From Nannochloropsis oceanica (Eukaryota > Sar > Eustigmatophyceae > Eustigmatales > Monodopsidaceae), in contig CP038117.1 in assembly GCA_004519485.1 (NCBI GenBank), positions 496,001-560,000 of the forward strand: a stretch of 64,000 bases of DNA, given 5' to 3'. The notes beneath the pieces were generated by a model. It saw only the letters and a list, made by a program, of their open reading frames with translations. It searched no databases and was not told the origin of the DNA. The position numbers and the translations under genes were made by a program. Positions within the stretch are counted from its first letter, which is position 1. Every line of letters starts with the position of its first letter. Of the stretch, positions 34,555 to 61,100 are shown one piece after another.

Positions 34555-36558
34555 ATGGAGGTGGTCCTGACGGGCCGGCTGGTCCTCCTTCACCAAGTGG
34601 CGACCGCAACAGCAGAGGCAGCACCCAAGAAGACTGAAGGGGAAAAAAAACTAGCATCACATGAAGATACCGCGCCGTCTGGTCCGGTTCATGAAGTCAA
34701 GGCGACCACCACGCCTTTCCAGCGATCCAAGAATATAGCAGCAGGGCCGCTAGAGGTAACCGCAACCTCAGGCGTCGCTACCGGGGCGGAAACAACTATG
34801 TTGGTCGACGAGGCAGCCCACAAGAAGGATGGCGCGAAGTATCGGTGGGAAGGAAAGTGGTACTTCCGAGGTAACAAGAACAAGTCCAGCACCTTTGCGT
34901 ACGACGTAAGTCTTTATAATGTCAAATGAGCTTGTTTGATGGTAGGGCTCGTTGAAATGACTTAATAAGAGGGATGAAGATGAAGAGAGATGGCACCTCC
35001 TCCTGCACTTCTTTCTCCATTCCCTGACGACTGGGGCAGCGGCGAGCCTACCCACTTTCCGCTATTTAGAATGATTTGCATGCACCCCACCTGAAGGCAA
35101 GAGCTACCAGTTTTCCCTGGTGCGTATCTGACTACGTTTTGATTCCTGCCTCCCTTCTCACAGCTCCCTCCTCTTCCCCGCCTTTCTCTCTTTTGGAAGG
35201 TTCTCTGGTCCCGTCAAAATGACAAAATACAACAGCAGCCTGAGCAATACTACACAGGGCAACAATTACGGCAAGAGGATCTTAACAAGGAATGCCTGCT
35301 GGAGACGTCGGACAAGAAAAGCGATATTAACGATAGCGACAAGTCTACCCCTGCCATCGCCTCGGCCGCAGTCGAAACGACTGAAGTCCTTGCCGCCTCA
35401 AAACCTTCCCCCAAAGCCGCGAGTGTATATGCGTCGATTTTTCCCCCCTCATCTCTCATGGCAGGAGTCTTGGAGAACGACGCTCTCAATGACGAGCAGT
35501 TGAATTTCTCCCTCCTCCCTGACCTGCCATCCAACCTCCTGGGCGATGACAGCATTTTCGATTTGAATCGCGCGGGGGGCGATTTCTTGGACACTGGACG
35601 GGCTCTCACTGGCGTTATTGGTGAAGGAGGCATGCCTGCGCGTTCAGCTGTTCCGACTACAGCAGAGTCAATGGTAGCAGAGGAAGCAGCAGAAGCGGAT
35701 GCAGCGGTGGCAGGCTCTGGGCTCTCAGATTTATTTCCGGTGGATGCCTGTGCTAAGTGCCATGGAGGGTTTTTCGTGCATAATCCTACCGGGGAGGGTG
35801 TCAATGAGATAGCCGAGACATTTGAATTAACCATTCTGCGACCAGCCACGGGTATGGCGACCAATGGCAACACGAGCTCGAGTTACGTGGAGGTGCTGGG
35901 TGAGGGTCGGAATGTCTACGGGGAATTCATCTTGGAAGGGAAGATCAACGCCCAGCATGGATTACGCATGATCTGCCACCGTCGATATAAGAGTGACTTG
36001 GTCAAGCGTATAGCTAAGGCGAACAAGGCCAAGAACTGCAGTGTCAACAAGACCAAAAACACCAATAACACCAACAACGACGACAACAGTGCGAGTTTAG
36101 CAGGTGTCACAGCATTGGATGCGAGCAACAGCAGCAGCACTGCAATTTGTGCCGGAGAACACCGTCGGTCTTCCAATCGTATCACACTTGGTGTCCGCAA
36201 GACGCCATTGTTCCCAGATCAGGACGCTGGTGGTGCGGGATTAAACCTGGCTATGCCTGTCTCTGCCACGTTTGCTTCTTCCTCCGCGGGAAAGCTTCTG
36301 AAGGCAGCACAGGCCTGCAATCGCGCTGAGCTTCGAAGGGTCTGGTGGCAATGGTGGCAGCATGTGATCGCAGACAGGCAGGAAGAGGAGAAACAAGCGG
36401 AAGTTGCTAGTGCTGAGAAGAGGGCAACCTCGAGCTCTGGCGGTGGGGTGGGTGGGGGAGATGGCAGCAAGAATGGATGTAAGCGAAAATTCTCCTCGTT
36501 TAGTAACTTGACCTCGGGTGTGGATATAGAGAATAGAGCTGATACAGGTTATCATCGA

Positions 36559-36590
<32 letters not shown>

Positions 36591-37544
36591 GCAGGACTAT
36601 GAAGGGAATCCATGGCGGGAGCAGCAGCAGCAGCAGCAACAGGGGCCGGTGGCTGAGGGCTGGGTGTCGGCCTTGGCGGACGAGGACGGCGAAGTTTATG
36701 AAGGGGAGGTGGTAGATGGGGAGCGGGATGGGGTAGGCATCTGTGTGTTTCCCAACGGTTTGTTGTACCAGGGCACGTGGGCGCAGGGAAAGGAACACGG
36801 ATCAGGGAAACTCATGACACACGGTCGGTGCTTAATTTATGATGGGGAGTGGTCCGAGGGCAAGATGAGCGGGAAGGGCCGGTATGTGTTCCCTTCCGGT
36901 GGGGTCTACGAGGGGGACTGGCGAGAGAACGTACGTCAGGGACATGGTTGCTACAAACTGCCGGGGGGAGCGAGCTATGAGGGGGACTGGCGCGAGGACC
37001 TTCGGTGGGGATTTGGTGTCTTCACGTGGGCGGATGGGTCTGTTTATGAAGGCGAATGGGTAAGGGGCATGCGGCAGGGCAAGGGTACGCTGCGTTGCGC
37101 GGCGTTCGAATACGTCGGGCAGTGGACGGAGAACAAAATGGAGGGTAAAGGGTAAGTTGGGAGTTGAATATTACGAAGCGGTCGTGCCGGTCGTGATAGT
37201 CGCTATTTCTCCGCGGTGACTTTTGACTCGTGTGTCCCTCGCATTCTCACCGGTTAATTTCATTTTTTCATTTTATCAGGGTGTGCGCCTACGAAAATGG
37301 ACAACGCTACGAGGGGATGTGGCGCGGGGGCCTCAAGGACGGACGCGGCCGTCTCGTGCTCTCCAACGGGTCGGCGCAGTATGAGGGACGCTTCCGAGAG
37401 GATTTTTTGGACGGGCAAGGCACCCTGGAGCTCTTGAAACCCTTGCCTGGGGCGGTGGATGATGAATGGGTCATACCTCTTGATGTTAAGTTTGACGTGG
37501 CGAGGGCACATGTGAAGGCGGGGTTCGGGCAAGGGGGTACATAG
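34555..37544 (+). CDS. MORN-repeat protein
   Basis: Four proposed exons, 34555-34905, 35102-35119, 35200-37151 and 37280-37544, give 861 residues in frame. Exon 2 is an 18-nt micro-exon (codons for SYQFSL) suggested by an ag/gtgcgt pair; without it the frame also closes, so it is tentative. An N-terminal region (YRWEGKWYFRG, then WSRQN) recurs later as a similar element around 35840-35990 (VLGEGRNVYGEFILEG). A Cys pair (CAKCHGGF) follows VDA, then two poly-Gln runs. The C-terminal 280 residues are about eight MORN repeats (YEGEWxxGxxxGxG pattern). MORN arrays bind phospholipids or act as scaffolds at membranes and the cytoskeleton. No catalytic domain seen; the specific role is unknown. Confidence 0.8.
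36560..36642 (+). repeat. Two CAG microsatellites (poly-Gln)
   Basis: CAG/CAA runs at about 36560-36594 and 36622-36642 in the MORN gene, encoding roughly 12 and 8 glutamines with a short spacer. Likely length-variable. Confidence 0.88.
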
Positions 37545-37873: not shown

Positions 37874-40140
37874 TCAACGGTCAATACTATCGCACCGGCC
37901 CACCACCATACCCTTCAGACCCACTTGCAAGCACTCGAGCTGAGAGTCGTCGTCCATCTTGAATTCAGGTAACGTGGCAGCAGTCGGTCGAACGATGCAG
38001 TTCTTGCCAATATGTACGCGGTTTCGGGTGAGGAACGGCGCTTCGTAGCTGTGCCCACCCAGCAACACATTCTGCTCAACGGCGCTGCCCTCCCCTAAGA
38101 AAACCAGGTCGACATCCGGAATAGACACTGCCTCCAAAAACACGTCCCGTTCTATGTGCAGACCCAACAAACGGTAGTACATATTGTAAAAAGGGCTCCC
38201 TCGAAGCAACTCCGTGAAGTGTAGGTGCACGATGCTCTGCACCATTAAGACCATGTTCCAGGTGTAATAATGCAAGTCGTACGTACGGTGCTTCTTGGAC
38301 GGTCCCATCTTGCCTAGAAACACCCACTTGAGCACGATCACCATCGTGCACAGCAGCAGCCCGTGCATCATGTAGATAAAAGGGGTTAAGAACAAGGCCG
38401 TACTTGCCGGGGTGTACTTCCAGAATGGGAGCATGCTGAACAAGCAGGTGAAGAAGCCAGCAAACGACACCACAGTGGTGATAACAAGAGGCTGGATCAA
38501 CGGAAATAAGAAGTACAAAATCCATTCCACAAGAGTAAAGTTCCGGTCCTGCAAGCCCTCCATGGAAATGTGATAAATGGGGCGCGGCCGCGGGTTGCCC
38601 ATGTGCATGGCTCCCTCCTTAAGCTCGTCTGTGGCCGTGACCCTGCACAATGCGCCCACCCCTGTTTTGGCCGGGATGGTCGACCCCTCCAACACCACGG
38701 ACCCCATCCCGACGAGTGCGTGGTCTCCGATCTTGATCTTGCCGTATGTGGTTTCAACATTGCCTCTTTTCTCCCCATCCACAGCACGACGGGTCACGCC
38801 TGTGATGAGCGCTGCTCGGTCGCCGATGTGCACGTCAGTGCCTACTTCGATCAGGTCTGGGTCTCTGTAAGATTCCGGCAGGTCATGTATTCCGTTGCAT
38901 ACGCGTATACAGGCACGCCATCCAATCTTAGCGCCCAACACGGTGAGCCAAAAATTGATAAAGGACGTGCCAAGGGTCATTGATGCCGTGTGCCGGAAGG
39001 AATACTCGAGCAAAGAGTCACAGAACCACTTGCGCCAACCAATGTAACCACTGTCTGAAGCCGTCCCTGACTTGGTCCTTCCGACCAACAGCCACTTGAC
39101 GAGTGCAGTCAGAACAATCAGCACTAAGGAGTAACCCAAGTAGAAAGCTGGGAACACCCAGACGATCCCGATCACATCGTATTTAGTCAAGACCATCATC
39201 AGAATCTCGGCGAACCCATCCCGGTCACCTCCCACGAAGAGGGGGAGAAATGGCAGATAAAGTCCGGAGGTCAGCTGCAGGGTAGCCAGAGCAGACATGA
39301 TCCCACCTTGGTTCCGGCTGTTCGACATGCTCGAGGCAATGGCATTCACGACCAGCAAAGAGCATGACGCCAAGGCATACACGAAGTACAGTCCTAGGAT
39401 GTGGCCGAACGTTTCAAGCGCCGCCCGTCTAATATAGTGCCGCATATTGGTGTTCGATTCGTCGGAAGAACCGCTACGAGGCGTCCTGCCAATGGCTTGG
39501 CCTTGCATCTGATTCCTGCCTACACTAGCCAAAGCCGGGACAGTCGTGAAATGATCCACGCGTGCGTCCGGCTGGAGGACGGCCCGAGGTCCAATGGTAC
39601 AGGACTGACCGATGGCGATCATACCGAATGTTATCACACCATCGCGGATCGTATGCCCGAGCAAGAGTGCCCCATTCCCGATGACTGTTCCGTCATGGAT
39701 GGTGAGCATGTCAGGATCAGTGATACCGACGGTATCAATAAGAACATCTCGGCCAATGCGTGCACCCATCAAACGGTAGTATACACTCAGCAAGCGCGTT
39801 CGCTTCAATTCTCCGAGTACTAACATGTTGGCAAAACTTATGAGCCTGGTCACCACCCAGTACTGAACGAATCTGACGCTTGCAAGCGGGATCTGCTCGG
39901 TGGGTTTTATGTTCCCCAGAATCAGCTTCTTGCTGAGCACCACCAACGCGCAAACAAGCACCATATAGAGGAGCTTGGCGCATGGTGCGAGCACTAAGAC
40001 GCCTACCACTGTCGGTAGCTCGAGACCGTACTGGAAGGTGCGGCTGAGGACCAGCCAGCCAGGGAATAGAACGACAGCGGAGATATACAACATGGCAACG
40101 AGGTAACACAGGCTCAGATACCACGAATGAAGGCGCCCTT
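37874..40140 (-). other. PKS C-terminal region: 3 x (TM pair + left-handed beta-helix)
   Basis: About 700 residues after the last ACP. Three units: TM pair 39910-40130 then hexapeptide beta-helix 39560-39800; TM pair about 39085-39415 then beta-helix 38590-39010; TM pair 38310-38525 then beta-helix 37874-38215. Each helix opens alike: YYRLMGARIGRDV, WLTVLGAKIGWRA, YYRLLGLHIERDV. The layout and these openings match the terminal domain of some bacterial NRPS/PKS proteins (TIGR02353 type), best known from epsilon-poly-L-lysine synthetase, where six TM helices surround three soluble domains. In that enzyme the domains catalyse chain elongation by free substrate. Here it probably anchors the synthase in a membrane and may release or transfer the chain (helix 1 has LLGHTIRDG, helix 3 LLGGHSYEA). 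Confidence 0.8.
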
Positions 40141-43100
40141 CTTGTGCGGGAAGATTCTCCAACTCATCAACGATGGAGCTTCGAAGTGAGTGACCATGCA
40201 AGAGACCTGTCTGCTCCCCACCTTTGGTCCCGTCCACGCCGCCGGTCCTGGTCCGCGTCAGCGATCTTCCCAGGCCAAGTATTCCTGATATCATTTCTCC
40301 GATGCTCGGGTGAACAAACAAGAAATCGGACGATAGCTTAATCCCTGTTCCCTGTAGACGAGAAGAAATATCTGTGACGAAGGACACGGCACCCATCGAA
40401 TCCATCTGTAGGTCCAAAATAAGTGTCTCATCCGTTAGTGCAGGTATATCATTCAGCGTCTCTTCCAGGCATTCAAAGATAACACTCCGGATATGCTCTC
40501 GTGTGAGGGGCAATGAAAGATCTCCGAGCGGGGCTACCTTTCCTCCAATTGTCGAGTCACACCCAACGACCAGCATGTCCGTCGGCCGCTGCCACGGAAA
40601 TGGCTGACGCTTGTAGACACAGAGGTCAGGGTTTTCAGATACCGGATCGTATAACACGCCCGAGCCCGCTGCAGCCACAGCGGAGGAGTCCACAGCCACA
40701 CCATCCGCACACTCCACCTTTTCCGACAACTCCGCCGCCGTCTTGGCGAAGACGCTCTCGTCCTTTCGGTCGAGCGACGCCAGCCAGACAAAGTCCCGGG
40801 CACCTGTGAGGCATTGCCTGCCCATCTTGATCAGGGTCGGCTCAGGCCCCACCTCAACGAACACTTCGCAACCCAGCCCGCGCAACGTGCCCATACCATC
40901 AGCAAATCTTACCCCGCCGACAAGATGCTGAGCCCAGTGCTGCCCCGAACACAGTTCTGCGTCCGTGACTACCTGACCCGTCACATTCGTCACCACCGGG
41001 ATCGAGGGCGACCCCACCTTGATCTTCTCCACCACCCCTGCCAGCTCAGAGGCGGCCGGCGCCATCAGGGGCGAGTGAAAGGCGTGAGAAACTGTCAGCG
41101 CCTTACCCACTAGATTCAAGTTCCCCAGCAGCAACTCAACCGAAGCTTTAGGACCGGACACCACCAGACTCTTCGGCCCGTTGATGGCGGCGATCGACAC
41201 ATTCTCCAGGCCCGCCGTCTCCTGTATTGCCTTCAACACAACCTCCTCGCTCGCCCGCACTGCCATCATGCAGCCATCTTGCTTTGGCAACGACTGCATC
41301 AGTCGCGCGCGCTCCACAATCAACGCCAACCCGTCTTCCAGGCTCAAAGCCCCCGAAACGCACACTGCGACGTACTCCCCGGCACTGTGACCCAGCAACG
41401 CATCTGGCATCACGCCCTTGGACTTCCACAGCATCGCCAACGAGTACTCCAAAGCAAACAACGCCGGCTGCGAGTACATCGTCTCGTTGATCAGCGACAC
41501 ATCATCCGAGGCACCAGGAAAAATAATGGACAGCAGCGACCTGTCCCACAGGCCCGACAAAATGCCATCGCATTGAGTTATTGCGGCCTTGAACACCACC
41601 TCCGTATCATACAACCCCTTGCCCATGCCCACGTACTGCGAGCCTTGCCCAGTGAACAGGAAGGCCACCTTTTTACTTTGCGGCTCTGAAGTCCCAAGAG
41701 CAACGCCGAGCGACAAGCCTTCTCTCGACCACGGGGCCGCCTCCTCCACAACCACGTGCGCGTTCGTGCCGCCAAAGCCGAACGAGCTCAGCCCCGCCAC
41801 GATGCGACCCGAGACTCCCGTCCACTTACCCAAAGCTGTACGCTCCTGTGGAAAGATCAGCGGGAAGCCCTCCACGTTGATGTGCGGATTCAACTTCTTC
41901 AGGTGCAGATTCGGCGGTGCCTCCCGGTGCAGCAGCACTAAAACGAGCTTGATAAGGCCAGCCGTGCCAGCGCCCGCCTCCAAGTGGCCAATGTTGGTTT
42001 TCACCGCACCCAAGACCAGCGGTCGGTCCTCCTTTCGCCCCGACCCGTACACAGCCTTCAAGGCACCGACTTCGATCGGATCCCCGAGCGACGTGCCCGT
42101 CCCGTGAGCCTCCACGTACTCCACGTCCAGCGGCGATACCTGCGCTTCTTGTAGAGCCGCTACGATTACCTCCTCCTGCGACGGCCCGTTAGGTGCCGTC
42201 AGACTCGCGCTGCGGCCGTCTTGGTTCACCGCGCTTCCCTTCACCACTGCCAGCACGCGGTTTTGTGCCGCCGTCGCATCCGACAGACGCTTCAGCACCA
42301 CACCACTACACCCTTCGCCTCTGCCATACCCATTTGCGTCGGCATCGAATGACTTGCATTTCCCGTCAGGAGCTAGCATTCTAGCCTTCGCAAGGGCAAT
42401 GAAGGCAGTAGGGCTCAGCATTAAGTTCACTCCAGCGACAAGAGTCATGTCGCATTTGCCACGTCGAAGCTTTTCGCATGCAGCATCTAGAGCAACCAAG
42501 GACGAGGAGCACGCGGTGTCAATACTCATGCTTGGACCCTTAAGGCCAAGCGTGTAAGACACTCTGTTCGCGGCAATTGAGATAGAACATCCGGTCCCAG
42601 TAAAAACGCTGGCCCCTCGTATCATCGTGCTCCAGTCATTCGACCCAACTCCCACGAAGACCCCTGTCGAGCTACCTAACAGTGTTGCTTTGTCGTTTCC
42701 CGACGTAAACAGTGCCTGATAGCCAACTTCAAGTAACAGCCGCTGCTGCGGATCCATGCTCGCTGCCTCAACCTTCGATATGCCGAAGAAAGCCGCGTCA
42801 AACAGCTCCACATCGTTAATGAAGCCTCCGTGCCGCACGTAGCTTTTGTTCTCCGCGTCCGGGTTCGGGTCGTAGACCTTGTCCGCGTCCCATCGACTTG
42901 CTGGTACTTCCACAATGCCGTCCCGACCCTCCAAGAGCATCTCCCAGAACGCCGCAGGGCTATCGCTACCGCCCGGTAGTCGACAAGCCATGCCGACCAC
43001 CGCCAGCCCTTCAGAAGACGCCCCCTCCGACAAGAACACTCGCTGTATTCCACCTCGTCCACCTTGTGACGGCATGATCTCCTCCAGCAGGTACGCCGCC

Positions 43101-46100
43101 ACTCCGTTCACCGTCGGGTAGTCCAAAAACAGGGTCGCCGACAGCTGCATCCCGCTCAATCGAGACGACAGCGTATTCCGCAGCTCCACCTGAGCCAGTG
43201 AGTCCAGCCCCGACTCCATCAACGGCGCGTCTCCGTCCAACTCGCCGTTACCAGACACCTCCTTGGCTGTCTCCAGCACCAGGTTGCGAAGGTACTCGAC
43301 TCGACCCGTACCCGGGATAGAGCGCAATAACTCCGCTGCACCCATTGCACCCTTACGACCCCTTTTACATTCCACGATGCGTGGCACATACAGCCGGGAC
43401 CCGCGCACCGCCACCTCCACCTCATTGTCCGGTATCGACATGGAGCCGTCCAGCAGGCGGCACACATCGTCCACCATACCCTCGTCGCTGGCTCCCACGT
43501 CCACGTGGTGCACACCCAACTCGACGTGCTCGATGCCAAGCGTCTTAACAAATCCCGACACCCACGATTGACGCGTGCTTGTTTCCGATGAAATGCTCTC
43601 CTTGTCCACGGGCAAAACCCCCGCGCTCACAAACCACAACGATGACGGGAGCACCTTGCCTTCGCTTGGGGACAATGCACCCTTCACCAAGGCCAAGCTT
43701 CGCTTGATCATCATGTCCTCCTTGCCCGGCAGTGACACCACCGTCGACCACGTCTCCAACGCAATCAAGGCCGCCAAGTGCACCGGGCTCGTCAGGTCCG
43801 CGCGATACAACCGCACATTCTCATGCGACGAGTCCATGATCTCCAGGCCCTCGCACGCCCCGTGCTCTACCAGCGTCAGAGACGACAGCACCGCCGCCTT
43901 CTCAATCAGCTGTTTGAGCGAGGCCTCAGTTACGCCCAGCACCAGCACGGCCTTGGCCTTCGAGCCAGCCATGCTTGCCACTTCCTCCCAGGTCACCTCA
44001 AACAACAACTCATCGGATACCTTCTCCGAAGGGACAGACCAGGGAAAGGACTGCCGATTGAATATCGCCTCCGGTCGCTGCATGATTGCGCCAACTTGTG
44101 TCAGCCCATCCTTCTCCACAACTTCAGCTTCTTCTACCACCACGTGCGCGTTCGTGCCGCCAAAGCCGAACGAGCTCAGCCCCGCCACGATGCGACCCGA
44201 GACTCCCGTCCACTTACCCAAAGCTGTACGCTCCTGTGGAAAGATCAGCGGGAAGCCCTCCACGTTGATGTGCGGATTCAACTTCTTCAGGTGCAGATTC
44301 GGCGGTGCCTCCCGGTGCAGCAGCACTAGGATCGTCTTGAGCAACCCCGCTATGCCAGCGCCCGCCTCCAAGTGGCCAATGTTGGTTTTCACCGCACCCA
44401 AGACCAGCGGTCGGTCCTCCTTTCGCCCCGACCCGTACACAGCCTTCAAGGCACCGACTTCGATCGGATCCCCGAGCGACGTGCCCGTCCCGTGAGCCTC
44501 CACGTACTCCACGTCCAGCGGCGATACCTGCGCTTCTTGTAGAGCCGCTACGATTACCTCCTCCTGCGACGGCCCGTTAGGTGCCGTCAGACTCGCGCTG
44601 CGGCCGTCTTGGTTCACCGCGCTTCCCTTTACCACTGCCAGCACGCGGTCTTGAGCCGCCGTCGCATCCGACAGACGCTTCAGCACCATCGCACCACAAC
44701 CCTCACCACGCACGTAGCCGTTCGCTGACTCATCAAAAGTCTTGCATCTGGCGTCCGCACACAACATGCGAGCCTTGCACAAGGCGATCAACGAGGCTGG
44801 GCTCAGAAGAAGATTGATGCCTAAAATAATTGCAGCACTGCACTTTCGAGTACGAAGTCTCAGCATAGCTGAATCAAGGGCAACCAAGGATGAAGAACAC
44901 GCTGTATCAATGGTCATACTTGCACCCCTCAACCCCAAGACGTACGAGACGCGGTTTGCCGCAATCGACGCAGCAGCACCCGTGCCAGTATAGGCGGAAG
45001 CTTGGAAGATCATTGAACTCCAATCATAAGACCCAAGACCAACAAAAACACCTGTGTCTTGACCCACCAAATCCTTGCGAGCGTAACCACACATAGCAAA
45101 TGCCGAAAACCCGACCTCGAGCAACAGCCGCTGCTGCGGATCCATGCTCGCTGCCTCAATTGCGGAGATGCCGAAGAAAGCCGCGTCAAACAGCTCCACA
45201 TCGTTAATGAAGCCTCCGTGCCGCACATAGCTTTTGTTCTCCGCGTCCGGGTTCGGGTCGTAGACCTTGTCCGCGTCCCATCGACTTGCTGGTACTTCCA
45301 CAATGCCGTCCCGACCCTCCAAGAGCATCTCCCAGAACGCCGCAGGGCTATCGCTACCGCCCGGTAGTCGACAAGCCATGCCGACCACCGCCAGCCCTTC
45401 AGAAGACGCCCCCTCCGACAAGAACACTCGCTGTATTCCACCTCGTCCACCTTGTGACGGCATGATCTCCTCCAGCAGGTATGCCGCCACTCCGTTCACC
45501 GTCGGGTAGTCCAAAAACAGGGTCGCCGACAGCTGCATCCCGCTCAATCGAGACGACAGCGTATTCCGCAGCTCCACCTGAGCCAGTGAGTCCAGCCCCG
45601 ACTCCATCAACGGCGCGTCTCCGTCCAACTCGCCGTTACCAGACACCTCCTTGGCTGTCTCCAGCACCAGGTTGCGAAGGTACTCGACTCGACCCGTAGC
45701 CGGGATAGAGCGCAATAACTCCGCTGCACCCATTGCACCCGACGAGGCACCGCCCGCCGACACATCCGACCGCGCAACACGCGAGAAGAACGGAGGCAAG
45801 CGTCCGCCTGACCGGGCCGCGAATTTCGACCAAGACACCGGCAACACCGCCGCTTGGCCAATCCCGCCCTCCTGTGACATGAGGCTGCTCAGCGCAGACA
45901 CGCCCATCTCATTCGTGATGCCACTTATGCCCTGCCCTTCCAAACGCTTCACTGTGTCCTTCTCCGTTGCCATGCCCGCCGACGCCCACGGGCCCCACTG
46001 TACGCTCAAAGCCGGCAGACCCCGTCCACGACGGAAGTGCGCCAGCCCGTCCAGTGCAGCGTTCGCAGACGCGTAGTTCGACTGACCAGGCGATCCCATC

Positions 46101-49100
46101 AGCGACGAGATGGACGAGAACAACACAAAAAAGTCCAACGACACGTCCAGCTCCTCAGCCAATGCATGCAAGTGCCATGCCCCGTCCACCTTGGACGAGA
46201 ACACACGCTCAAACTTCTCCACCGTCTGATTCTCCACCGTTGCATCATCCAGCACGCCAGCAGAGTGGATCACCCCGCGCACCGGTGGCAGCATCTGACC
46301 CACGGTCTTGAACATCTGGCGAACGGACTCCCGCTTCGACACGTCGCATTTTAGCACCTCCACACGGGCCTTGGACCTGCGCAGCTTTTCTACCGCAGCC
46401 TCAGCCGCCGCACCCGACGCCCCGCTGCGCGACAGCAACACCACATTCTCGGCGCCCTCCTCGATCAAACGCTCGGCAAAGACCATACCCAGCGCCCCCA
46501 GCCCGCCCGTGATCACGTACGTAGCTTCAGGGACCACGCCCATACTGCCCGGGGCAGAAATCGAAGCCTTGCTCGACACCAAGCGTGGCACATACAGCCG
46601 GGACCCGCGCACCGCCACCTCCACCTCATTGTCCGGTATCGACATGGAGCCGTCCAGCAGGCGGCACACATCGTCCACCATACCCTCGTCGCTGGCTCCC
46701 ACGTCCACGTGGTGCACACCCAACTCGACGTGCTCGATGCCAAGCGTCTTAACAAATCCCGACACCCACGATTGACGCGTGCTTGCTTCCGATGAAATGC
46801 TCTCCTTGTCCACGGGCAAAACCCCCGCGCTCACAAACCACAACGATGACGGGAGCACCTTGCCTTCGCTTGGGGACAATGCACCCTTCACCAAGGCCAA
46901 GCTTCGCTTGATCATCATGTCCTCCTTGCCCGGCAGTGACACCACCGTCGACCACGTCTCCAACGCAATCAAGGCCGCCAAGTGCACCGGGCTCGTCAGG
47001 TCCGCGCGATACAACCGCACATTCTCATGCGACGAGTCCATGATCTCCAGGCCCTCGCACGCCCCGTGCTCTACCAGCGTCAGAGACGACAGCACCGCCG
47101 CCTTCTCAATCAGCTGTTTGAGCGAGGCCTCAGTTACGCCCAGCACCAGCACGGCCTTGGCCTTCGAGCCAGCCATGCTTGCCACTTCCTCCCAGGTCAC
47201 CTCAAACAACAACTCATCGGATACCTTCTCCGAAGGGACAGACCAGGGAAAGGACTGCCGATTGAATATCGCCTCCGGTCGCTGCATGATTGCGCCAACT
47301 TGTGTCAGCCCATCCTTCTCCACAACTTCAGCTTCTTCTACCACCACGTGCGCGTTCGTGCCGCCAAAGCCGAACGAGCTCAGCCCCGCCACGATGCGAC
47401 CCGAGACTCCCGTCCACTTACCCAAAGCTGTACGCTCCTGTGGAAAGATCAGCGGGAAGCCCTCCACGTTGATGTGCGGATTCAACTTCTTCAGGTGCAG
47501 ATTCGGCGGTGCCTCCCGGTGCAGCAGCACTAAAACGAGCTTGATAAGGCCAGCCGTGCCAGCGCCCGCCTCCAAGTGGCCAATGTTGGTTTTCACCGCA
47601 CCCAAGACCAGCGGTCGGTCCTCCTTTCGCCCCGACCCGTACACAGCCTTCAAGGCACCGACTTCGATCGGATCCCCGAGCGACGTGCCCGTCCCGTGAG
47701 CCTCCACGTACTCCACGTCCAGCGGCGATACCTGCGCTTCTTGTAGAGCCGTGCTTATCACCTCCTCCTGCGACGGCCCGTTAGGTGCCGTCAGACTCGC
47801 GCTGCGGCCGTCTTGGTTCACCGCGCTTCCCTTTACCACTGCCAGCACGCGGTTTTGTGCCGCCGTCGCATCCGACAGACGCTTCAGCACCACACCACTA
47901 CAACCCTCACCACGGGCATAACCGTCAGCAGACTCGTCAAAAGTCTTGCACCGACCACTTGTGGACAGCATCCGGGCCTTGCAGTGTGCAACGGTGACGT
48001 GAGGAGTCAGCATAAGATTGACTCCAGCCACAAAAGCCAGTTTGCAGCGACCTCGCTTCAGATTCTGGGCGGCGGCATCTAATGCTACGAGTGCCGACGA
48101 ACAGGCAGTGTCCATGCTCACGCTTGGGCCCTTCAGGCCCAAGACGTACGAGACGCGGTTTGCCGCAATCGATGCAGCAGCACCCGTGCCTGTATACACG
48201 GATGCCTTCTCGGACATAAGTTTGGTCCAGTCACTCGTCGAAAGACCCACAAACACGCCGGTATAGCTCTGAAGCAACGTCGCTTTCGTCTCTCCAGCAA
48301 AATGCATTGCGGCATATGCCACCTCGAGCAACAGCCGCTGCTGCGGATCCATGCTCGCTGCCTCAATTGCGGAGATGCCGAAGAAAGCCGCGTCAAACAG
48401 CTCCACATCGTTAATGAAGCCTCCGTGCCGCACATAGCTTTTGTTCTCCGCGTCCGGGTTCGGGTCGTAGACCTTGTCCGCGTCCCATCGACTTGCTGGT
48501 ACTTCCACAATGCCGTCCCGACCCTCCAAGAGCATCTCCCAGAACGCCGCAGGGCTATCGCTACCGCCCGGTAGTCGACAAGCCATGCCGACCACCGCCA
48601 GCCCTTCAGAAGACGCCCCCTCCGACAAGAACACTCGCTGTATTCCACCTCGTCCACCTTGTGACGGCATGATCTCCTCCAGCAGGTACGCCGCCACTCC
48701 GTTCACCGTCGGGTAGTCCAAAAACAGGGTCGCCGACAGCTGCATCCCGCTCAATCGAGACGACAGCGTATTCCGCAGCTCCACCTGAGCCAGTGAGTCC
48801 AGCCCCGACTCCATCAACGGCGCGTCTCCGTCCAATTCGCCGTTACCAGACACCTCCTTGGCTGTCTCCAGCACCAGGTTGCGAAGGTACTCGACTCGAC
48901 CCGTAGCCGGGATAGAGCGCAATAACTCCGCTGCACCCATTGCACCCGACGAGGCACCGCCCGCCGACACATCCGACCGCGCAACACGCGAGAAGAACGG
49001 AGGCAAGCGTCCGCCTGACCGGGCCGCGAATTTCGACCAAGACACCGGCAACACCGCCGCTTGGCCAATCCCGCCCTCCTGTGACATGAGGCTGCTCAGC

Positions 49101-52100
49101 GCAGACACGCCCATCTCATTCGTGATGCCACTTATGCCCTGCCCTTCCAAACGCTTCACTGTGTCCTTCTCCGTTGCCATGCCCGCCGACGCCCACGGGC
49201 CCCACTGTACGCTCAAAGCCGGCAGACCCCGTCCACGACGGAAGTGCGCCAGCCCGTCCAGTGCAGCGTTCGCAGACGCGTAGTTCGACTGACCAGGCGA
49301 TCCCATCAGCGACGAGATGGACGAGAACAACACAAAAAAGTCCAACGACACGTCCAGCTCCTCAGCCAATGCATGCAAGTGCCATGCCCCGTCCACCTTG
49401 GACGAGAACACACGCTCAAACTTCTCCACCGTCTGATTCTCCACCGTTGCATCATCCAGCACGCCAGCAGAGTGGATCACCCCGCGCACCGGTGGCAGCA
49501 TCTGACCCACGGTCTTGAACATCTGGCGAACGGACTCCCGCTTCGACACGTCGCATTTTAGCACCTCCACACGGGCCTTGGACCTGCGCAGCTTTTCTAC
49601 CGCAGCCTCAGCCGCCGCACCCGACGCCCCGCTGCGCGACAGCAACACCACATTCTCGGCGCCCTCCTCGATCAAACGCTCGGCAAAGACCATACCCAGC
49701 GCACCCAGCCCGCCCGTGATCACGTACGTAGCTTCAGGGACAAGGTGATAGCTACTCGGCAGTGACAAGATCACTTTGCCGATGTGTTGCCCCAGCTGCA
49801 TGTATCGGAAGGCCTCGATGTACTCGTACTCCATATTGAACACACGAGTTGGCGGTGCGTGTAGCAGGCCCTTTTCCGCCTTGTCGCACAAGCTCTTCAG
49901 GCATCGCCCATACCAAAACGGATCTTGGGTGATCATGTGATCCAATGCAATGGTCTCGTAGTGTACGTCCGCGCGGGCCGCATACATTTGCTCATGAGTC
50001 CATATGTCACGCTTGCCGATCTCCATAAAACGGCCTCGCGGCCCCAGGACCTCCACCGAGTGCTTGATGAAGTCTCCGGAAAGGCTATTCAGTACCACGT
50101 CGATCTTCTCACCACCTGGGAGAAAGCTTTGCATGTCCTTGAAGAACTCGTCCGGATCCCGAGAACTCGTCACGTATTGCACGCCCAGAGAACGGAGGTA
50201 ATCGTGCTTCTCCTTGCGTCCTGCGGTGGCATAAATGATGGCGCCGACAGACTGTGCATACTGTACGGCGGCGAGCCCAACACCGCCCGTGGCCGCGTGG
50301 ATCAGTACACGCTCACCGGCGCGCAACTTCGCAAAGTGGCCCAACGCCACTTCCGTCGTCGAGAAGATGCTTGGTAAGGAGGCTGCATCCTCGAAAGACA
50401 GGTTCTTCGGCTTGAGCTCCACCAGGGCTGCTACCACCGCCACGTAAGTACGCAGGCAGCCTGGCATCATGCCGTACACATTGTCGCCTACCTTGACGTG
50501 CTCCACGTTTGCGCCCACAGCCACCACCGTACCCGCGCAGTCGGACCCTGGTTGGCCGGGGTCTCCAGGGTAAAGTCCCATGACGTTCAAGACATCGCGG
50601 AAGTTCAACCCCACCGCCCGAACCCGAACTAGTACCTCACCCTCCCGCACGCTGTTGCCACCGCGCCCTGGGTCCGTCATCGGCTGAATGTTCAGGTTGC
50701 TGATAGCGCCCCGCTCCGACAAATCAACCTCGATTGAGCCCCGGAAAAGGGCACCACTGCGCATCAGTCGAGGCACGTGCACCTCATCCCCCCGCAAGCA
50801 CATCTCCACCTCCATTGCTGGTACCTTGATTCGACCGGTGACAAGGCGAGCTAGCTGTTGAGAAACACCTGCCTCCGATCCAGCCTCAGCATCTAGATCT
50901 ACGTGCACTAGGCCAAGCTCTGAATGCTCCACCTTCACGCTCTTTGCGTAACCGGACACCCAAGACTGCCAGTTGTACTCAACCTTGTGGCAGCCGTTCC
51001 CCGCCGCTTGCGCCCCTTGCGTCAAGAGCCACAGGTTTACAGGCCGAGATTTCTCCTCCATACTTAAGACAGCGTGGGTCAAGGCCAGTACGCACGCAAA
51101 CATCTCCGACCGACCCGCACTTTCCTCCAACAACAGGCCGCCATACATCACACCGCTCCATTCTCCGCTTGAGATGAGTGCTTTCACATGCGCAGGATCT
51201 GTCAAGTCGGCTGCCGTGCCTGCCTTCTTGGCCCCCTTATGGTGCCTCACAAATGACACGTCCTCAATGGCATCCATTTCTTCTAAGAGGCCACGCACGA
51301 GAGACACGAGAGGCTCCGAAAGACCCAATACCAGCCATTTACCTATCCCTGTGCTTGCTGTCTTGCTGATGGCAGAAGAGGGAATATCGACCTGCGCAGG
51401 GCTCCATTGTACTTCGTACAGACATTGAGCTGCGGACCGGTGCCGCGATGCTGATCGGGACATCCGGCGACAGGTCACTTCTTGAAGAGAAACAATCACC
51501 TCCCCATGCTCGTCCGTCAGCTCTACCTCACAAGTAATGACTTTCTTGTCGTGGCCCGTCACACGTGCGTGAGCCCACATGCGGTTTGTCATCGCCTTGT
51601 GCACGACCATCTGTCGCACCGAATACGGCAAGTAAGGGTCATTTTGAGACGTCCCATTTGACGCGCCGCCGCTTGTGGCCACCGCCACTAGCTGCAAGGC
51701 GCCGTCTAGAACAGCAGGATGGACGTAGAACTTCGATTCCCAGCCCTCTGATTCGGGTGCCACTTGTAGCTCCCCCAGTGCTTCCTTGTCGCCGCGGTAG
51801 GCCCGCTGAATGGTGCGGAACCTTGGGCCAAACTCCAGACCTAAGTCCCGCAAAATCTCGTACATCTTCAAAGCGTCGACCTCATCAGGGCAGCGTGCTC
51901 GCACGTCCGCAACTGTATCGCCCACCACAGGCTTATCAAATGTGTGCTGGAGTTCTAGCTGGCCCCTGCCGTTCACAACCACCGCTTCATGCTCCTCTCC
52001 GACAGTCTTCTGCATCTCATAGGTGCCGTCCGGGAAAACCACGCACTGCAGGTGTGCCTCCTCCTCCTCACCATCGACTACCAATGGGGCTTCAAACAAC

Positions 52101-55100
52101 ACGTCCCGTACTATCAGAACATCATCCTCGGTACACTTGCGTCGCCGTTGCTGCATGTCACGTGCAGCGGCCGCTGCAGCCTCCAGGTATGCTGCCCCGG
52201 GAACAATTACTTGACCGGAGACCTGGTGGTCCTTCAGCAACCCGTACAGCTTGCCCGCCAACTTGGTGCGGTATATCACTACACCATCAGCCGTCGTCGA
52301 CTTCATCTGCAGCAATGGGTGTCTCACCTCGTGCCACGGAAACAGCTGACGCTTGTAGAGCGAGAAGGGACTGAGGATGTCTCTCCAGCCCGCTGCAGCC
52401 ACAGCGGAGGAGTCCACAGCCACACCATCCGCACACTCCACCTTTTCCGACAACTCCGCCGCCGTCTTGGCGAAGACGCTCTCGTCCTTTCGGTCGAGCG
52501 ACGCCAGCCAGACAAAGTCCCGGGCACCCGTGAGGCATTGCCTGCCCATCTTGATCAGGGTCGGCTCAGGCCCCACCTCAACGAACACTTCGCAACCCAG
52601 CCCGCGCAACGTGCCCATACCATCAGCAAATCTTACCCCGCCGACAAGATGCTGAGCCCAGTGCTGCCCCGAACACAGTTCTGCGTCCGTGACTACCTGA
52701 CCCGTCACATTCGTCACCACCGGGATCGAGGGCGACCCCACCTTGATCTTCTCCACCACCCCTGCCAGCTCAGAGGCGGCCGGCGCCATCAGGGGCGAGT
52801 GAAAGGCGTGAGAAACTGTCAGCGCCTTACCCACTAGATTCAAGTTCCCCAGCAGCAACTCAACCGAAGCTTTAGGACCGGACACCACCAGACTCTTCGG
52901 CCCGTTGATGGCGGCGATCGACACATTCTCCAGGCCCGCCGTCTCCTGTATTGCCTTCAACACAACCTCCTCGCTCGCCCGCACTGCCATCATGCAGCCA
53001 TCTTGCTTTGGCAACGACTGCATCAGTCGCGCGCGCTCCACAATCAACGCCAACCCGTCTTCCAGGCTCAAAGCCCCCGAAACGCACACTGCGACGTACT
53101 CCCCGGCACTGTGACCCAGCAACGCATCTGGCATCACGCCCTTGGACTTCCACAGCATCGCCAACGAGTACTCCAAAGCAAACAACGCCGGCTGCGAGTA
53201 CATCGTCTCGTTGATCAGCGACACATCATCCGAGGCACCAGGAAAAATAATGGACAGCAGCGACCTGTCCCACAGGCCCGACAAAATGCCATCGCATTGA
53301 GTTATTGCGGCCTTGAACACCACCTCCGTATCATACAACCCCTTGCCCATGCCCACGTACTGCGAGCCTTGCCCAGTGAACAGGAAGGCCACCTTTTTAC
53401 TTTGCGGCTCTGAAGTCCCAAGAGCAACGCCGAGCGACAAGCCTTCTCTCGACCACGGGGCCGCCTCCTCCACAACCACGTGCGCGTTCGTGCCGCCAAA
53501 GCCGAACGAGCTCAGCCCCGCCACGATGCGACCCGAGACTCCCGTCCACTTACCCAAAGCTGTACGCTCCTGTGGAAAGATCAGCGGGAAGCCCTCCACG
53601 TTGATGTGCGGATTCAACTTCTTCAGGTGCAGATTCGGCGGTGCCTCCCGGTGCAGCAGCACTAAAACGAGCTTGATAAGGCCAGCCGTGCCAGCGCCCG
53701 CCTCCAAGTGGCCAATGTTGGTTTTCACCGCACCCAAGACCAGCGGTCGGTCCTCCTTTCGCCCCGACCCGTACACAGCCTTCAAGGCACCGACTTCGAT
53801 CGGATCCCCGAGCGACGTGCCCGTCCCGTGAGCCTCCACGTACTCCACGTCCAGCGGCGATACCTGCGCTTCTTGTAGAGCCGTGCTTATCACCTCCTCC
53901 TGCGACGGCCCGTTAGGTGCCGTCAGACTCGCGCTGCGGCCGTCTTGGTTCACCGCGCTTCCCTTCACCACTGCCAGCACGCGGTTTTGTGCCGCCGTCG
54001 CATCCGACAGACGCTTCAGCACCATCGCACCACAACCCTCACCACGCACGTAGCCGTTCGCTGACTCATCAAAAGTCTTGCATCTGGCATCCCCACACAA
54101 CATACGGGCCTTGCACAGCGCGACGAAGGATGCAGGACTGAGCATCAGGTTCACGCCGGCCACCACCGCCATATCGCACTTTCTGCGCCGTAGCTTCTCG
54201 CCGGCGGCATCCAACGCTACCAAAGATGACGAGCAGGCAGTGTCAATACTCATGCTTGGACCCTTCAAGCCAAGCGAGTACGAGACGCGGTTTGCCGCAA
54301 TCGACGCAGCAGCGCCTGTGCCGGTATATGGTGTGGCTTTGTTGCGTAATACATTCACCCAGTCTGTGGAGCCAATGCCAACAAATACCCCAGTCATGCT
54401 CTGAAGCAACGCTTCCTTGGTAAGTCCCGCTCGAGCAAATGACTCAAATGTCACCTCTAGCAACAACCGCTGCTGCGGATCCATGCTCATGACCTCGGGA
54501 GCCGTGATGCCGAAGAAAGCCGCGTCAAACAGCTCCACATCGTTAATGAAGCCTCCGTGCCGCACATAGCTTTTGTTCTCCGCGTCCGGGTTCGAATCAT
54601 AAATCTCGTCCACGTCCCATCGACTTGCTGGTACTTCCACAATGCCGTCCCGACCCTCCAAGAGCATCTCCCAGAACGCCGCAGGGCTATCGCTACCGCC
54701 CGGTAGTCGACAAGCCATGCCGACCACCGCCAGCCCTTCAGAAGACGCCCCCTCCGACAAGAACACTCGCTGTATTCCACCTCGTCCACCTTGTGACGGC
54801 ATGATCTCCTCCAGCAGGTACGCCGCCACTCCGTTCACCGTCGGGTAGTCCAAAAACAGGGTCGCCGACAGCTGCATCCCGCTCAATCGAGACGACAGCG
54901 TATTCCGCAGCTCCACCTGAGCCAGTGAGTCCAGCCCCGACTCCATCAACGGCGCGTCTCCGTCCAACTCGCCGTTACCAGACACCTCCTTGGCTGTCTC
55001 CAGCACCAGGTTGCGAAGGTACTCGACTCGACCCGTAGCCGGGATAGAGCGCAATAACTCCGCTGCACCCATTGCACCCGACGAGGCACCGCCCGCCGAC

Positions 55101-58100
55101 ACATCCGACCGCGCAACACGCGAGAAGAACGGAGGCAAGCGTCCGCCTGACCGGGCCGCGAATTTCGACCAAGACACCGGCAACACCGCCGCTTGGCCAA
55201 TCCCGCCCTCCTGTGACATGAGGCTGCTCAGCGCAGACACGCCCATCTCATTCGTGATGCCACTTATGCCCTGCCCTTCCAAACGCTTCACTGTGTCCTT
55301 CTCCGTTGCCATGCCCGCCGACGCCCACGGGCCCCACTGTACGCTCAAAGCCGGCAGACCCCGTCCACGACGGAAGTGCGCCAGCCCGTCCAGTGCAGCG
55401 TTCGCAGACGCGTAGTTCGACTGACCAGGCGATCCCATCAGCGACGAGATGGACGAGAACAACACAAAAAAGTCCAACGACACGTCCAGCTCCTCAGCCA
55501 ATGCATGCAAGTGCCATGCCCCGTCCACCTTGGACGAGAACACACGCTCAAACTTCTCCACCGTCTGATTCTCCACCGTTGCATCATCCAGCACGCCAGC
55601 AGAGTGGATCACCCCGCGCACCGGTGGCAGCATCTGACCCACGGTCTTGAACATCTGGCGAACGGACTCCCGCTTCGACACGTCGCATTTTAGCACCTCC
55701 ACACGGGCCTTGGACCTGCGCAGCTTTTCTACCGCAGCCTCAGCCGCCGCACCCGACGCCCCGCTGCGCGACAGCAACACCACATTCTCGGCGCCCTCCT
55801 CGATCAAACGCTCGGCAAAGACCATACCCAGCGCCCCCAGCCCGCCCGTGATCACGTACGTAGCTTCAGGGACCACGCCCATACTGCCCGGGGCAGAAAT
55901 CGAAGCCTTGCTCGCCACCAAGCGTGGCACATACAGCCGGGACCCGCGCACCGCCACCTCCACCTCATTGTCCGGTATCGACATGGAGCCGTCCAGCAGG
56001 CGGCACACATCGTCCACCATACCCTCGTCGCTGGCTCCCACGTCCACGTGGTGCACACCCAACTCGACGTGCTCGATGCCAAGCGTCTTAACAAATCCCG
56101 ACACCCACGATTGACGCGTGCTTGCTTCCGATGAAATGCTCTCCTTGTCCACGGGCAAAACCCCCGCGCTCACAAACCACAACGATGACGGGAGCACCTT
56201 GCCTTCGCTTGGGGACAATGCACCCTTCACCAAGGCCAAGCTTCGCTTGATCATCATGTCCTCCTTGCCCGGCAGTGACACCACCGTCGACCACGTCTCC
56301 AACGCAATCAAGGCCGCCAAGTGCACCGGGCTCGTCAGGTCCGCGCGATACAACCGCACATTCTCATGCGACGAGTCCATGATCTCCAGGCCCTCGCACG
56401 CCCCGTGCTCTACCAGCGTCAGAGACGACAGCACCGCCGCCTTCTCAATCAGCTGTTTGAGCGAGGCCTCAGTTACGCCCAGCACCAGCACGGCCTTGGC
56501 CTTCGAGCCAGCCATGCTTGCCACTTCCTCCCAGGTCACCTCAAACAACAACTCATCGGATACCTTCTCCGAAGGGACAGACCAGGGAAAGGACTGCCGA
56601 TTGAATATCGCCTCCGGTCGCTGCATGATTGCGCCAACTTGTGTCAGCCCATCCTTCTCCACAACTTCAGCTTCTTCTACCACCACGTGCGCGTTCGTGC
56701 CGCCAAAGCCGAACGAGCTCAGCCCCGCCACGATGCGACCCGAGACTCCCGTCCACTTACCCAAAGCTGTACGCTCCTGTGGAAAGATCAGCGGGAAGCC
56801 CTCCATGTTGATGTGCGGATTCAACTTCTTCAGGTGCAGATTCGGCGGTGCCTCCCGGTGCAGCAGCACTAAAACGAGCTTGATAAGGCCAGCCGTGCCA
56901 GCGCCCGCCTCCAAGTGGCCAATGTTGGTTTTCACCGCACCCAAGACCAGCGGTCGGTCCTCCTTTCGCCCCGACCCGTACACAGCCTTCAAGGCACCGA
57001 CTTCGATCGGATCCCCGAGCGACGTGCCCGTCCCGTGAGCCTCCACGTACTCCACGTCCAGCGGCGATACCTGCGCTTCTTGTAGAGCCGTGCTTATCAC
57101 CTCCTCCTGCGACGGCCCGTTAGGTGCCGTCAGACTCGCGCTGCGGCCGTCTTGGTTCACCGCGCTTCCCTTTACCACTGCCAGCACGAGGTTTTGTGCC
57201 GCCGTCGCATCCGACAGACGCTTCAGCACCACACCACTACAACCCTCACCACGGGCATAACCGTCAGCAGACTCGTCAAAAGTCTTGCACCGACCACTTG
57301 TGGACAGCATCCGGGCCTTGCAGTGTGCAACGGTGACGTGAGGAGTCAGCATAAGATTGACTCCAGCCACAAAAGCCAGTTTGCAGCGACCTCGCTTCAG
57401 ATTCTGGGCGGCGGCATCTAATGCTACGAGTGCCGACGAACAGGCAGTGTCCATGCTCACGCTTGGGCCCTTCAGGCCCAAGACGTACGAGACGCGGTTT
57501 GCCGCAATCGATGCAGCAGCACCCGTGCCTGTATACACGGATGCCTTCTCGGACATAAGTTTGGTCCAGTCACTCGTCGAAAGACCCACAAACACGCCGG
57601 TATAGCTCTGAAGCAACGTCGCTTTCGTCTCTCCAGCAAAATGCATTGCGGCATATGCCACCTCGAGCAACAGCCGCTGCTGCGGATCCATGCTCGCTGC
57701 CTCAATTGCGGAGATGCCGAAGAAAGCCGCGTCAAACAGCTCCACATCGTTAATGAAGCCTCCGTGCCGCACATAGCTTTTGTTCTCCGCGTCCGGGTTC
57801 GGGTCGTAGACCTTGTCCGCGTCCCATCGACTTGCTGGTACTTCCACAATGCCGTCCCGACCCTCCAAGAGCATCTCCCAGAACGCCGCAGGGCTATCGC
57901 TACCGCCCGGTAGTCGACAAGCCATGCCGACCACCGCCAGCCCTTCAGAAGACGCCCCCTCCGACAAGAACACTCGCTGTATTCCACCTCGTCCACCTTG
58001 TGACGGCATGATCTCCTCCAGCAGGTACGCCGCCACTCCGTTCACCGTCGGGTAGTCCAAAAACAGGGTCGCCGACAGCTGCATCCCGCTCAATCGAGAC

Positions 58101-61100
58101 GACAGCGTATTCCGCAGCTCCACCTGAGCCAGTGAGTCCAGCCCCGACTCCATCAACGGCGCGTCTCCGTCCAACTCGCCGTTACCAGACACCTCCTTGG
58201 CTGTCTCCAGCACCAGGTTGCGAAGGTACTCGACTCGACCCGTAGCCGGGATAGAGCGCAATAACTCCGCTGCACCCATTGCACCCGACGAGGCACCGCC
58301 CGCCGACACATCCGACCGCGCAACACGCGAGAAGAACGGAGGCAAGCGTCCGCCTGACCGGGCCGCGAATTTCGACCAAGACACCGGCAACACCGCCGCT
58401 TGGCCAATCCCGCCCTCCTGTGACATGAGGCTGCTCAGCGCAGACACGCCCATCTCATTCGTGATGCCACTTATGCCCTGCCCTTCCAAACGCTTCACTG
58501 TGTCCTTCTCCGTTGCCATGCCCGCCGACGCCCACGGGCCCCACTGTACGCTCAAAGCCGGCAGACCCCGTCCACGACGGAAGTGCGCCAGCCCGTCCAG
58601 TGCAGCGTTCGCAGACGCGTAGTTCGACTGACCAGGCGATCCCATCAGCGACGAGATGGACGAGAACAACACAAAAAAGTCCAACGACACGTCCAGCTCC
58701 TCAGCCAATGCATGCAAGTGCCATGCCCCGTCCACCTTGGACGAGAACACACGCTCAAACTTCTCCACCGTCTGATTCTCCACCGTTGCATCATCCAGCA
58801 CGCCAGCAGAGTGGATCACCCCGCGCACCGGTGGCAGCATCTGACCCACGGTCTTGAACATCTGGCGAACGGACTCCCGCTTCGACACGTCGCATTTTAG
58901 CACCTCCACACGGGCCTTGGACCTGCGCAGCTTTTCTACCGCAGCCTCAGCCGCCGCACCCGACGCCCCGCTGCGCGACAGCAACACCACATTCTCGGCG
59001 CCCTCCTCGATCAAACGCTCGGCAAAGACCATACCCAGCGCACCCAGCCCGCCCGTGATCACGTACGTAGCTTCAGGGACAAGGTGATAGCTACTCGGCA
59101 GTGACAAGATCACTTTGCCGATGTGTTGCCCCAGCTGCATGTATCGGAAGGCCTCGATGTACTCGTACTCCATATTGAACACACGAGTTGGCGGTGCGTG
59201 TAGCAGGCCCTTTTCCGCCTTGTCGCACAAGCTCTTCAGGCATCGCCCATACCAAAACGGATCTTGGGTGATCATGTGATCCAATGCAATGGTCTCGTAG
59301 TGTACGTCCGCGCGGGCCGCATACATTTGCTCATGAGTCCATATGTCACGCTTGCCGATCTCCATAAAACGGCCTCGCGGCCCCAGGACCTCCACCGAGT
59401 GCTTGATGAAGTCTCCGGAAAGGCTATTCAGTACCACGTCGATCTTCTCACCACCTGGGAGAAAGCTTTGCATGTCCTTGAAGAACTCGTCCGGATCCCG
59501 AGAACTCGTCACGTATTGCACGCCCAGAGAACGGAGGTAATCGTGCTTCTCCTTGCGTCCTGCGGTGGCATAAATGATGGCGCCGACAGACTGTGCATAC
59601 TGTACGGCGGCGAGCCCAACACCGCCCGTGGCCGCGTGGATCAGTACACGCTCACCGGCGCGCAACTTCGCAAAGTGGCCCAACGCCACTTCCGTCGTCG
59701 AGAAGATGCTTGGTAAGGAGGCTGCATCCTCGAAAGACAGGTTCTTCGGCTTGAGCTCAACCAGGGCTGCTACCACCGCCACGTAAGTACGCAGGCAGCC
59801 TGGCATCATGCCGTACACATTGTCGCCTACCTTGACGTGCTCCACGTTTGCGCCCACAGCCACCACCGTACCCGCGCAGTCGGACCCTGGTTGGCCGGGG
59901 TCTCCAGGGTAAAGTCCCATGACGTTCAAGACATCGCGGAAGTTCAACCCCACCGCCCGAACCCGAACTAGTACCTCACCCTCCCGCACGCTGTTGCCAC
60001 CGCGCCCTGGGTCCGTCATCGGCTGAATGTTCAGGTTGCTGATAGCGCCCCGCTCCGACAAATCAACCTCGATTGAGCCCCGGAAAAGGGCACCACTGCG
60101 CATCAGTCGAGGCACGTGCACCTCATCCCCCCGCAAGCACATCTCCACCTCCATTGCTGGTACCTTGATTCGACCGGTGACAAGGCGAGCTAGCTGTTGA
60201 GAAACACCTGCCTCCGATCCAGCCTCAGCATCTAGATCTACGTGCACTAGGCCAAGCTCTGAATGCTCCACCTTCACGCTCTTTGCGTAACCGGACACCC
60301 AAGACTGCCAGTTGTACTCAACCTTGTGGCAGCCGTTCCCCGCCGCTTGCGCCCCTTGCGTCAAGAGCCACAGGTTTACAGGCCGAGATTTCTCCTCCAT
60401 ACTTAAGACAGCGTGGGTCAAGGCCAGTACGCACGCAAACATCTCCGACCGACCCGCACTTTCCTCCAACAACAGGCCGCCATACATCACACCGCTCCAT
60501 TCTCCGCTTGAGATGAGTGCTTTCACATGCGCAGGATCTGTCAAGTCGGCTGCCGTGCCTGCCTTCTTGGCCCCCTTATGGTGCCTCACAAATGACACGT
60601 CCTCAATGGCATCCATTTCTTCTAAGAGGCCACGCACGAGAGACACGAGAGGCTCCGAAAGACCCAATACCAGCCATTTACCTATCCCTGTGCTTGCTGT
60701 CTTGCTGATGGCAGAAGAGGGAATATCGACCTGCGCAGGGCTCCATTGTACTTCGTACAGACATTGAGCTGCGGACCGGTGCCGCGATGCTGATCGGGAC
60801 ATCCGGCGACAGGTCACTTCTTGAAGAGAAACAATCACCTCCCCATGCTCGTCCGTCAGCTCTACCTCACAAGTAATGACTTTCTTGTCGTGGCCCGTCA
60901 CACGTGCGTGAGCCCACATGCGGTTTGTCATCGCCTTGTGCACGACCATCTGTCGCACCGAATACGGCAAGTAAGGGTCATTTTGAGACGTCCCATTTGA
61001 CGCGCCGCCGCTTGTGGCCACCGCCACTAGCTGCAAGGCGCCGTCTAGAACAGCAGGATGGACGTAGAACTTCGATTCCCAGCCCTCTGATTCGGGTGCC

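Follow-up and report, generated by a model that had tools for sequence, protein, structure and literature searches.

A giant modular polyketide synthase of Nannochloropsis oceanica ends in a predicted membrane domain related to the Pls/PosA terminal domain

The stretch of DNA analysed here, the window, comprises 64,000 nt (G000:C2:496001-560000) of a Nannochloropsis oceanica genome of 29,264,788 bases (29.26 Mb) in 32 contigs, and positions below are those of the window unless a contig prefixed with C is given. It carries a single minus-strand reading frame of 16,178 codons, free of stops and of N, which terminates at position 37874 and extends past the window end to C2:582410. The first ATG is residue 30 and, at about 110 Da per residue, the protein is estimated at roughly 1.8 MDa. 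A MORN-repeat gene (35458-37155, plus strand) converges on the 3' end of the frame. The frame encodes a polyketide synthase (PKS) that opens with a fatty-acid-AMP ligase (FAAL)-type ligase and an acyl carrier protein (ACP), continues through 11 ketosynthase (KS) modules to a last ACP, and ends in a C-terminal region that we refer to as the tail (Table 1).

When the domains of this protein were themselves used as BLAST queries, the modules came out in the order ligase-ACP; KS-AT-KR-ACP; KS-KR-ACP twice; KS-AT-DH-ER-KR-ACP followed by KS-KR-ACP three times over; KS-ACP; KS-AT; last ACP; tail. The last ACP was missed by this approach and was detected by Pfam, which in a whole-genome search places 11 KS and five acyltransferase (AT) domains in the frame. 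Of the 11 modules, six carry a KR as their sole reducing domain, three reduce fully and two do not reduce. The loading ligase is nearest to the fatty-acid-AMP ligases (PRK05850, 324.5 bits, below the cut-off of 775 for that model). The Cys, His and His motifs are intact in all 11 KS, and the protein qualifies as a modular type I PKS; Ser and His are present in each of the five AT, the His motif in each of the three DH, and a Tyr region is seen by eye in all nine KR.

The repeats of the assembly line are closely alike. Module DNA is near-identical across 43076-64000, with modules 7 and 9 differing at 4 of 3204 bases, and 10 of the 12 carriers, all DH and all ER are protein-identical copies, whereas identity between the module 11 KS and those of modules 2-10 is 81-86%. 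It looks as if everything except the KS had been homogenised. Elsewhere in the genome, a stand-alone AT frame (C7:255309-256172, minus strand) is a candidate in-trans loader of the AT-less modules.

Table 1. Features of the PKS frame within the window, in the order in which they occur in the protein.
Feature	Position	Strand	Basis
Module 6, KS-AT-DH-ER-KR-ACP, cut by window end	58010..64000	(-)	
Module 7, KS-KR-ACP	54803..57940	(-)	
Module 8, KS-AT-DH-ER-KR-ACP	48671..54733	(-)	
Module 9, KS-KR-ACP	45464..48601	(-)	
Module 10, KS-ACP; pre-KR linker kept, KR catalytic half missing	43076..45394	(-)	
Module 11 ketosynthase	41711..43006	(-)	own-domain BLAST, Pfam
Module 11 acyltransferase	40802..41662	(-)	own-domain BLAST, Pfam
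Last acyl carrier protein; Ser codon 40397-40399	about 40244..40501	(-)	PF00550, E 1.5e-5
Pls/PosA-type terminal domain, last ~750 PKS residues including stop codon	37874..40132	(-)	TIGR02353, own tail HMM, AlphaFold model
Membrane helix 1 (predicted)	40019..40132	(-)	hydropathy, model
Membrane helix 2 (predicted)	39917..40012	(-)	hydropathy, model
Beta-helix repeat 1 (predicted)	39503..39799	(-)	NCBIfam match, model
Membrane helix 3 (predicted)	39326..39445	(-)	hydropathy, model
Membrane helix 4 (predicted)	39086..39223	(-)	hydropathy, model
Beta-helix repeat 2 (predicted)	38570..38935	(-)	
Membrane helix 5 (predicted)	38414..38533	(-)	hydropathy, model
Membrane helix 6 (predicted)	38315..38407	(-)	hydropathy, model
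Beta-helix repeat 3 (predicted), bears invariant His	37880..38164	(-)	alignment, model
Codon of His 16120 (frame numbering), invariant in repeat 3 and proposed as catalytic base	38051..38053	(-)	64/64 rows of alignment A1; 116/116 matches P0006-P0121

The initial annotation had read the stretch between the stop codon and about the first membrane helix as a domain like that which ends epsilon-poly-L-lysine synthetase (Pls), standing in place of a thioesterase, and had made a match to TIGR02353 the measure of this. Those limits hold, and TIGR02353, the NCBIfam model of the terminal domain of the Pls/PosA family (the epsilon-poly-L-lysine and delta-poly-L-ornithine synthetases), does match the tail, at 228.5 bits and an E value of 1.5e-67 over three stretches; as the second-best NCBIfam model reaches only 37.5 bits, the match is not due to chance. 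Our own tail HMM scores 272.6 bits over two stretches, of which the main one covers profile positions 132-738. A bare TIGR02353 match is not diagnostic, E <= 0.001 being reached in 13 of 14 control genomes and the curated cut-off exceeded in one, and it is the score together with the full-length pattern that carries the family assignment: similarity runs along most of the domain and is far above that to other hexapeptide families. It is the homology to Pls that stands, however, and not full membership, as 228.5 bits falls short of the cut-off of 423.1, and the tail is, judged by sequence, related to the Pls/PosA terminal domain but diverged from it, outside the formal equivalog. Its own relatives also score below that cut-off (P0004, 200.9 bits; P0005, 216 bits). 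Nor does the enzyme as a whole have the Pls/PosA layout of an amino-acid adenylation domain and carrier directly upstream: the carrier is present, but KS-AT precedes it and loading is of the FAAL type.

As to the thioesterase, Pfam finds three families at E <= 0.01 in the last 958 residues, a carrier protein and two hexapeptide repeats, and no thioesterase or reductase at that threshold; models for either are likewise missing from the best 25 of the 29 NCBIfam matches (E <= 1) of the tail. The LpxA model TIGR01852 matches it weakly (20.8 bits).

In the last 800 residues, hydropathy identifies 11 segments whose overlaps reduce them to six helices, or three pairs, a measure which is not specific by itself since 18 more (partly overlapping) segments pass the same threshold elsewhere in the frame. 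An AlphaFold model of the last ACP together with the tail (883 aa, pLDDT 81.0, pTM 0.81) has helices at model residues 132-169 and 172-203, 361-400 and 435-480, and 665-704 and 707-737, and a series of short hexapeptide-type strands comes after each pair. The six membrane helices in three pairs that characterise the family are thus predicted by hydropathy and model alike, and its three left-handed beta-helices appear in the model as the three short-strand runs; this plan of three beta-helices parted by membrane pairs, downstream of the last ACP, is the one that the initial annotation had drawn. Of the two outcomes that it had named as refuting, no match to the family and no such plan, neither occurred. 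The membrane location of the tail is itself only predicted. The listed structural matches fall mostly on repeat 2 and in some cases on repeat 3, with none for repeat 1 alone, and that they are made domain by domain only counts against the acyl-transfer reading developed below. No solved full Pls terminal domain is present among the best 60 of 110 sequence matches or among the listed fold matches.

Over the searched tail, the PKS is 100% identical to homologue P0002, also from N. oceanica. A more distant relative, P0005 (57% identical), runs from the end of an AT through an ACP into the tail within one predicted protein, so the fusion of PKS and tail is conserved. Homologues of the tail number 2315 at E <= 1e-5 among 7999 proteins scored; among the 120 matches listed, four are close relatives and the remainder are mostly Pls/PosA-type proteins, and identity of the PKS tail to the 60 Pls/PosA-type rows of alignment A1 is 21-25%. 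One other protein that joins a KS to the tail occurs among 36 long homologues: P0137, 1770 aa from a eukaryotic transcriptome, in which an autopeptidase domain of the Nup98 type stands after the KS and before the carrier matches and tail. The order is odd and perhaps reflects a self-cleaving protein or a mis-assembly. A land plant protein, P0167 from chicory (2232 aa), combines an AMP-ligase, a carrier and tail-like repeats with amine-oxidase and catalase Pfams; in the tree it forms a long branch that groups with the PKS tail.

The best evidence for release by transfer is the retention of a His in the third repeat, which in Pls-type tails lies mostly within THLFED or THLYED. This His, Glu828 and Lys871 are each present in 64 of 64 rows of alignment A1, and the His recurs in all 116 matches P0006-P0121 and in 79 of 80 GTDB loci, the 80th (L094) ending at a contig edge with repeat 2 aligned instead. 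The PKS and P0003-P0005 retain it. Its invariance as a family feature was found in this analysis rather than taken from the literature, and we infer that the residue would act as the catalytic base. Glu828, on the other side of the argument, is missing from many eukaryotic tails.

All five homologues in which a reductase follows the tail, an order verified in each, lack the His (a paralogue on C3, P0138, P0139 from Effrenium voratum, P0145 and P0153); the letter at the site shifts by a place or two with the alignment, and there is no His nearby. Outside a paralogue family on C12 and P0006-P0121, the other 39 distinct homologues all keep it (40 rows, with P0002 and the PKS identical at the site). 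As the C3 protein groups with P0138, P0139 and P0145 in the tree, where long branches are flagged, the losses may represent as few as two or three events. Counted against acyl transfer is P0150, which retains the His yet also lists thioesterase-type Pfams.

Besides the PKS, three further proteins in the genome bear the tail. In the AMP-ligase paralogue just mentioned (C3:138469-145614, plus strand), whose carrier can be recognised by eye but has no Pfam match, the tail is followed by a thioester-reductase-type domain and the third-repeat His is lost. The second (C12:706974-718619, minus strand) has the order AMP-ligase-ACP-KS-AT-KR-ACP and then the tail, which is preceded by a segment of ~430 residues without a Pfam match; it has close relatives in Nannochloropsis salina and elsewhere. 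In this FAAL-PKS, Asn replaces the His, as it does in four of the five orthologues P0159-P0163 (P0163 has His; the alignment of P0164-P0166 does not cover the site). The tail can thus be maintained when the His is gone and no recognised release domain is present, which again weighs against acyl transfer. The third is a single-module NRPS-like protein (C12:799257-804533, plus strand) with a near-canonical tail, at 417.4 bits just under the cut-off, in which the His is kept; it could possibly be a eukaryotic poly(amino acid) synthetase.

We put at roughly 0.6 the probability that the PKS tail acts as an ACP-dependent acyltransferase embedded in a membrane and frees the polyketide by passing it to an acceptor with an amine or hydroxyl; its chemistry, acceptor and location are putative. 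We count in its favour the family match, the fold, the invariant residues, the loss of the His where a reductase follows, the lack of a thioesterase or reductase model in the tail and the 11 of 11 intact KS, and against it, with the points already noted, the score below the cut-off and the His-less C12 paralogue. A fatty acid would be loaded as acyl-AMP, and 11 extensions would then build a chain that, read colinearly, would consist of the fatty starter plus 22 carbons, C38-C40 in all from a C16-C18 starter. Six of its positions would bear hydroxyls, three would be fully reduced, and the two terminal ones would be beta-ketones. The tail would be held in the membrane by its six helices, the last ACP would dock onto the beta-helices, and the third-repeat His would activate the amine or hydroxyl of the acceptor, which would go on to attack the thioester. 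Release would be by acyl transfer rather than hydrolysis, as in Pls and LpxA/LpxD. The latter two are left-handed beta-helix enzymes that transfer acyl groups from ACP with a catalytic His, and they are soluble homotrimers; what the tail would share with them is the beta-helix and the proposed His-dependent transfer from ACP to acceptor, the sequence match being weak.

It is unlikely, if by no means far-fetched, that the tail only holds the assembly line at the membrane and that the chain is freed either by a separate hydrolase or by the two terminal beta-ketones closing spontaneously into a pyrone. Modules 10 and 11 have no KR, which predicts a 3,5-dioxo thioester, and such thioesters can cyclise without an enzyme; moreover, the C12 and C3 paralogues retain the tail without the His. 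Pure anchoring, however, needs none of the invariant His, Glu and Lys that are kept in the PKS and P0003-P0005.

We consider it improbable that the tail is instead a membrane polyketide polymerase, repeatedly taking finished polyhydroxy chains from the last ACP and, while these are entering or crossing the membrane, joining them by ester bonds to each other or to acceptors, either lipids or wall components; the narrower version, in which chains are joined through their own hydroxyls as Pls joins lysines, to give a membrane-delivered polyester or wall precursor, is improbable too. The predicted chain does have several hydroxyls, and the tail is homologous to a domain described as involved in polymerisation (PMC10522769), but there is no sign of iteration, the known products as given in that paper are polymers of small diamino acids, and the predicted product is unlike the C32 alkyl diol reported in PMC11211512.

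That diol has its own claim to be considered, and it is very doubtful that the product of the PKS is a long-chain alkyl diol precursor of algaenan, passed by the tail to wall assembly. A PKS step in diol synthesis has been proposed for this genus in a review (PMC8511707), the C32 diol is described as present in shed walls and red bodies (PMC11211512), and a paper on N. salina raises the possibility that a PKS makes parts of algaenan (PMC5509672). The proposal, however, has a single KS/KR cycle in which DH and ER take no part and then five or six full cycles run by elongases (PMC8511707), unlike the mix of reduction levels in this assembly line (six modules with KR only, three that reduce fully and two that do not reduce); the single KS/KR cycle of the C12 paralogue fits the first step as proposed there, and that protein is better suited to it. 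Finally, it is scarcely credible that tail and PKS are two genes or that mis-assembly has produced the giant frame, for although near-identical repeats could have led to a mis-assembled number of modules, the frame is single and unbroken by stops or N, and P0005 covers AT to tail in one predicted protein.

With Pls/PosA, the tail shares a C-terminal domain of ~730 residues behind a carrier, three helix pairs and the invariant third-repeat His, and with the published PosA model three left-handed beta-helices (PMC10522769); it differs in having a modular PKS upstream instead of an amino-acid adenylation domain. The PKS also resembles the non-canonical PKSs of Chrysophaeum taylorii, another stramenopile alga, in its N-terminal adenylation-like domain and AT-less modules, and left-handed beta-helix domains are listed among the parts of those enzymes (PMC10366177), so a beta-helix on an algal PKS is already in print; the portion of that account considered here names no Pls homology, membrane helices or release role. 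Many KS per protein, and in some cases a ligase start or AT in trans, are features too of the large type I PKSs of Chlamydomonas, Chlorella and Emiliania (PMC4661987). According to a table in that 2015 survey, N. oceanica CCMP1779 has four type I PKSs, each with a single KS, unlike the 11 KS in one frame, ending in a predicted membrane tail, seen here; near-identical repeats may have hidden the giant gene from short-read assemblies. The initial annotation had suggested a new way of releasing the chain by transfer. The kept His favours transfer, but the idea has forerunners in the reported participation of the Pls terminal domain in polymerisation (PMC10522769) and in the Chrysophaeum beta-helix PKSs. 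The novelty is the joining of a Pls-type tail to a modular type I PKS; both Pls and the beta-helix domains of Chrysophaeum PKSs were known before.

Modular PKSs are known to end in thioesterase, reductase or condensation-type domains, and the polymerase reading, were it true, would add one more way. What algal type I PKSs do and make is described as mostly unknown (PMC4661987), and the same goes for the way in which the chain leaves these enzymes. That four proteins of one genome bear the tail, whether downstream of AMP-ligase, NRPS-like or PKS parts, suggests that Pls-type tails serve in general as acyl-ACP release modules and not for poly-lysine alone. His 16120 and the tail reduce the question to one residue and one domain, testable in a transformable alga, and if release proves to be acyl transfer at the membrane, the tail would be a new off-loading part for engineered assembly lines.
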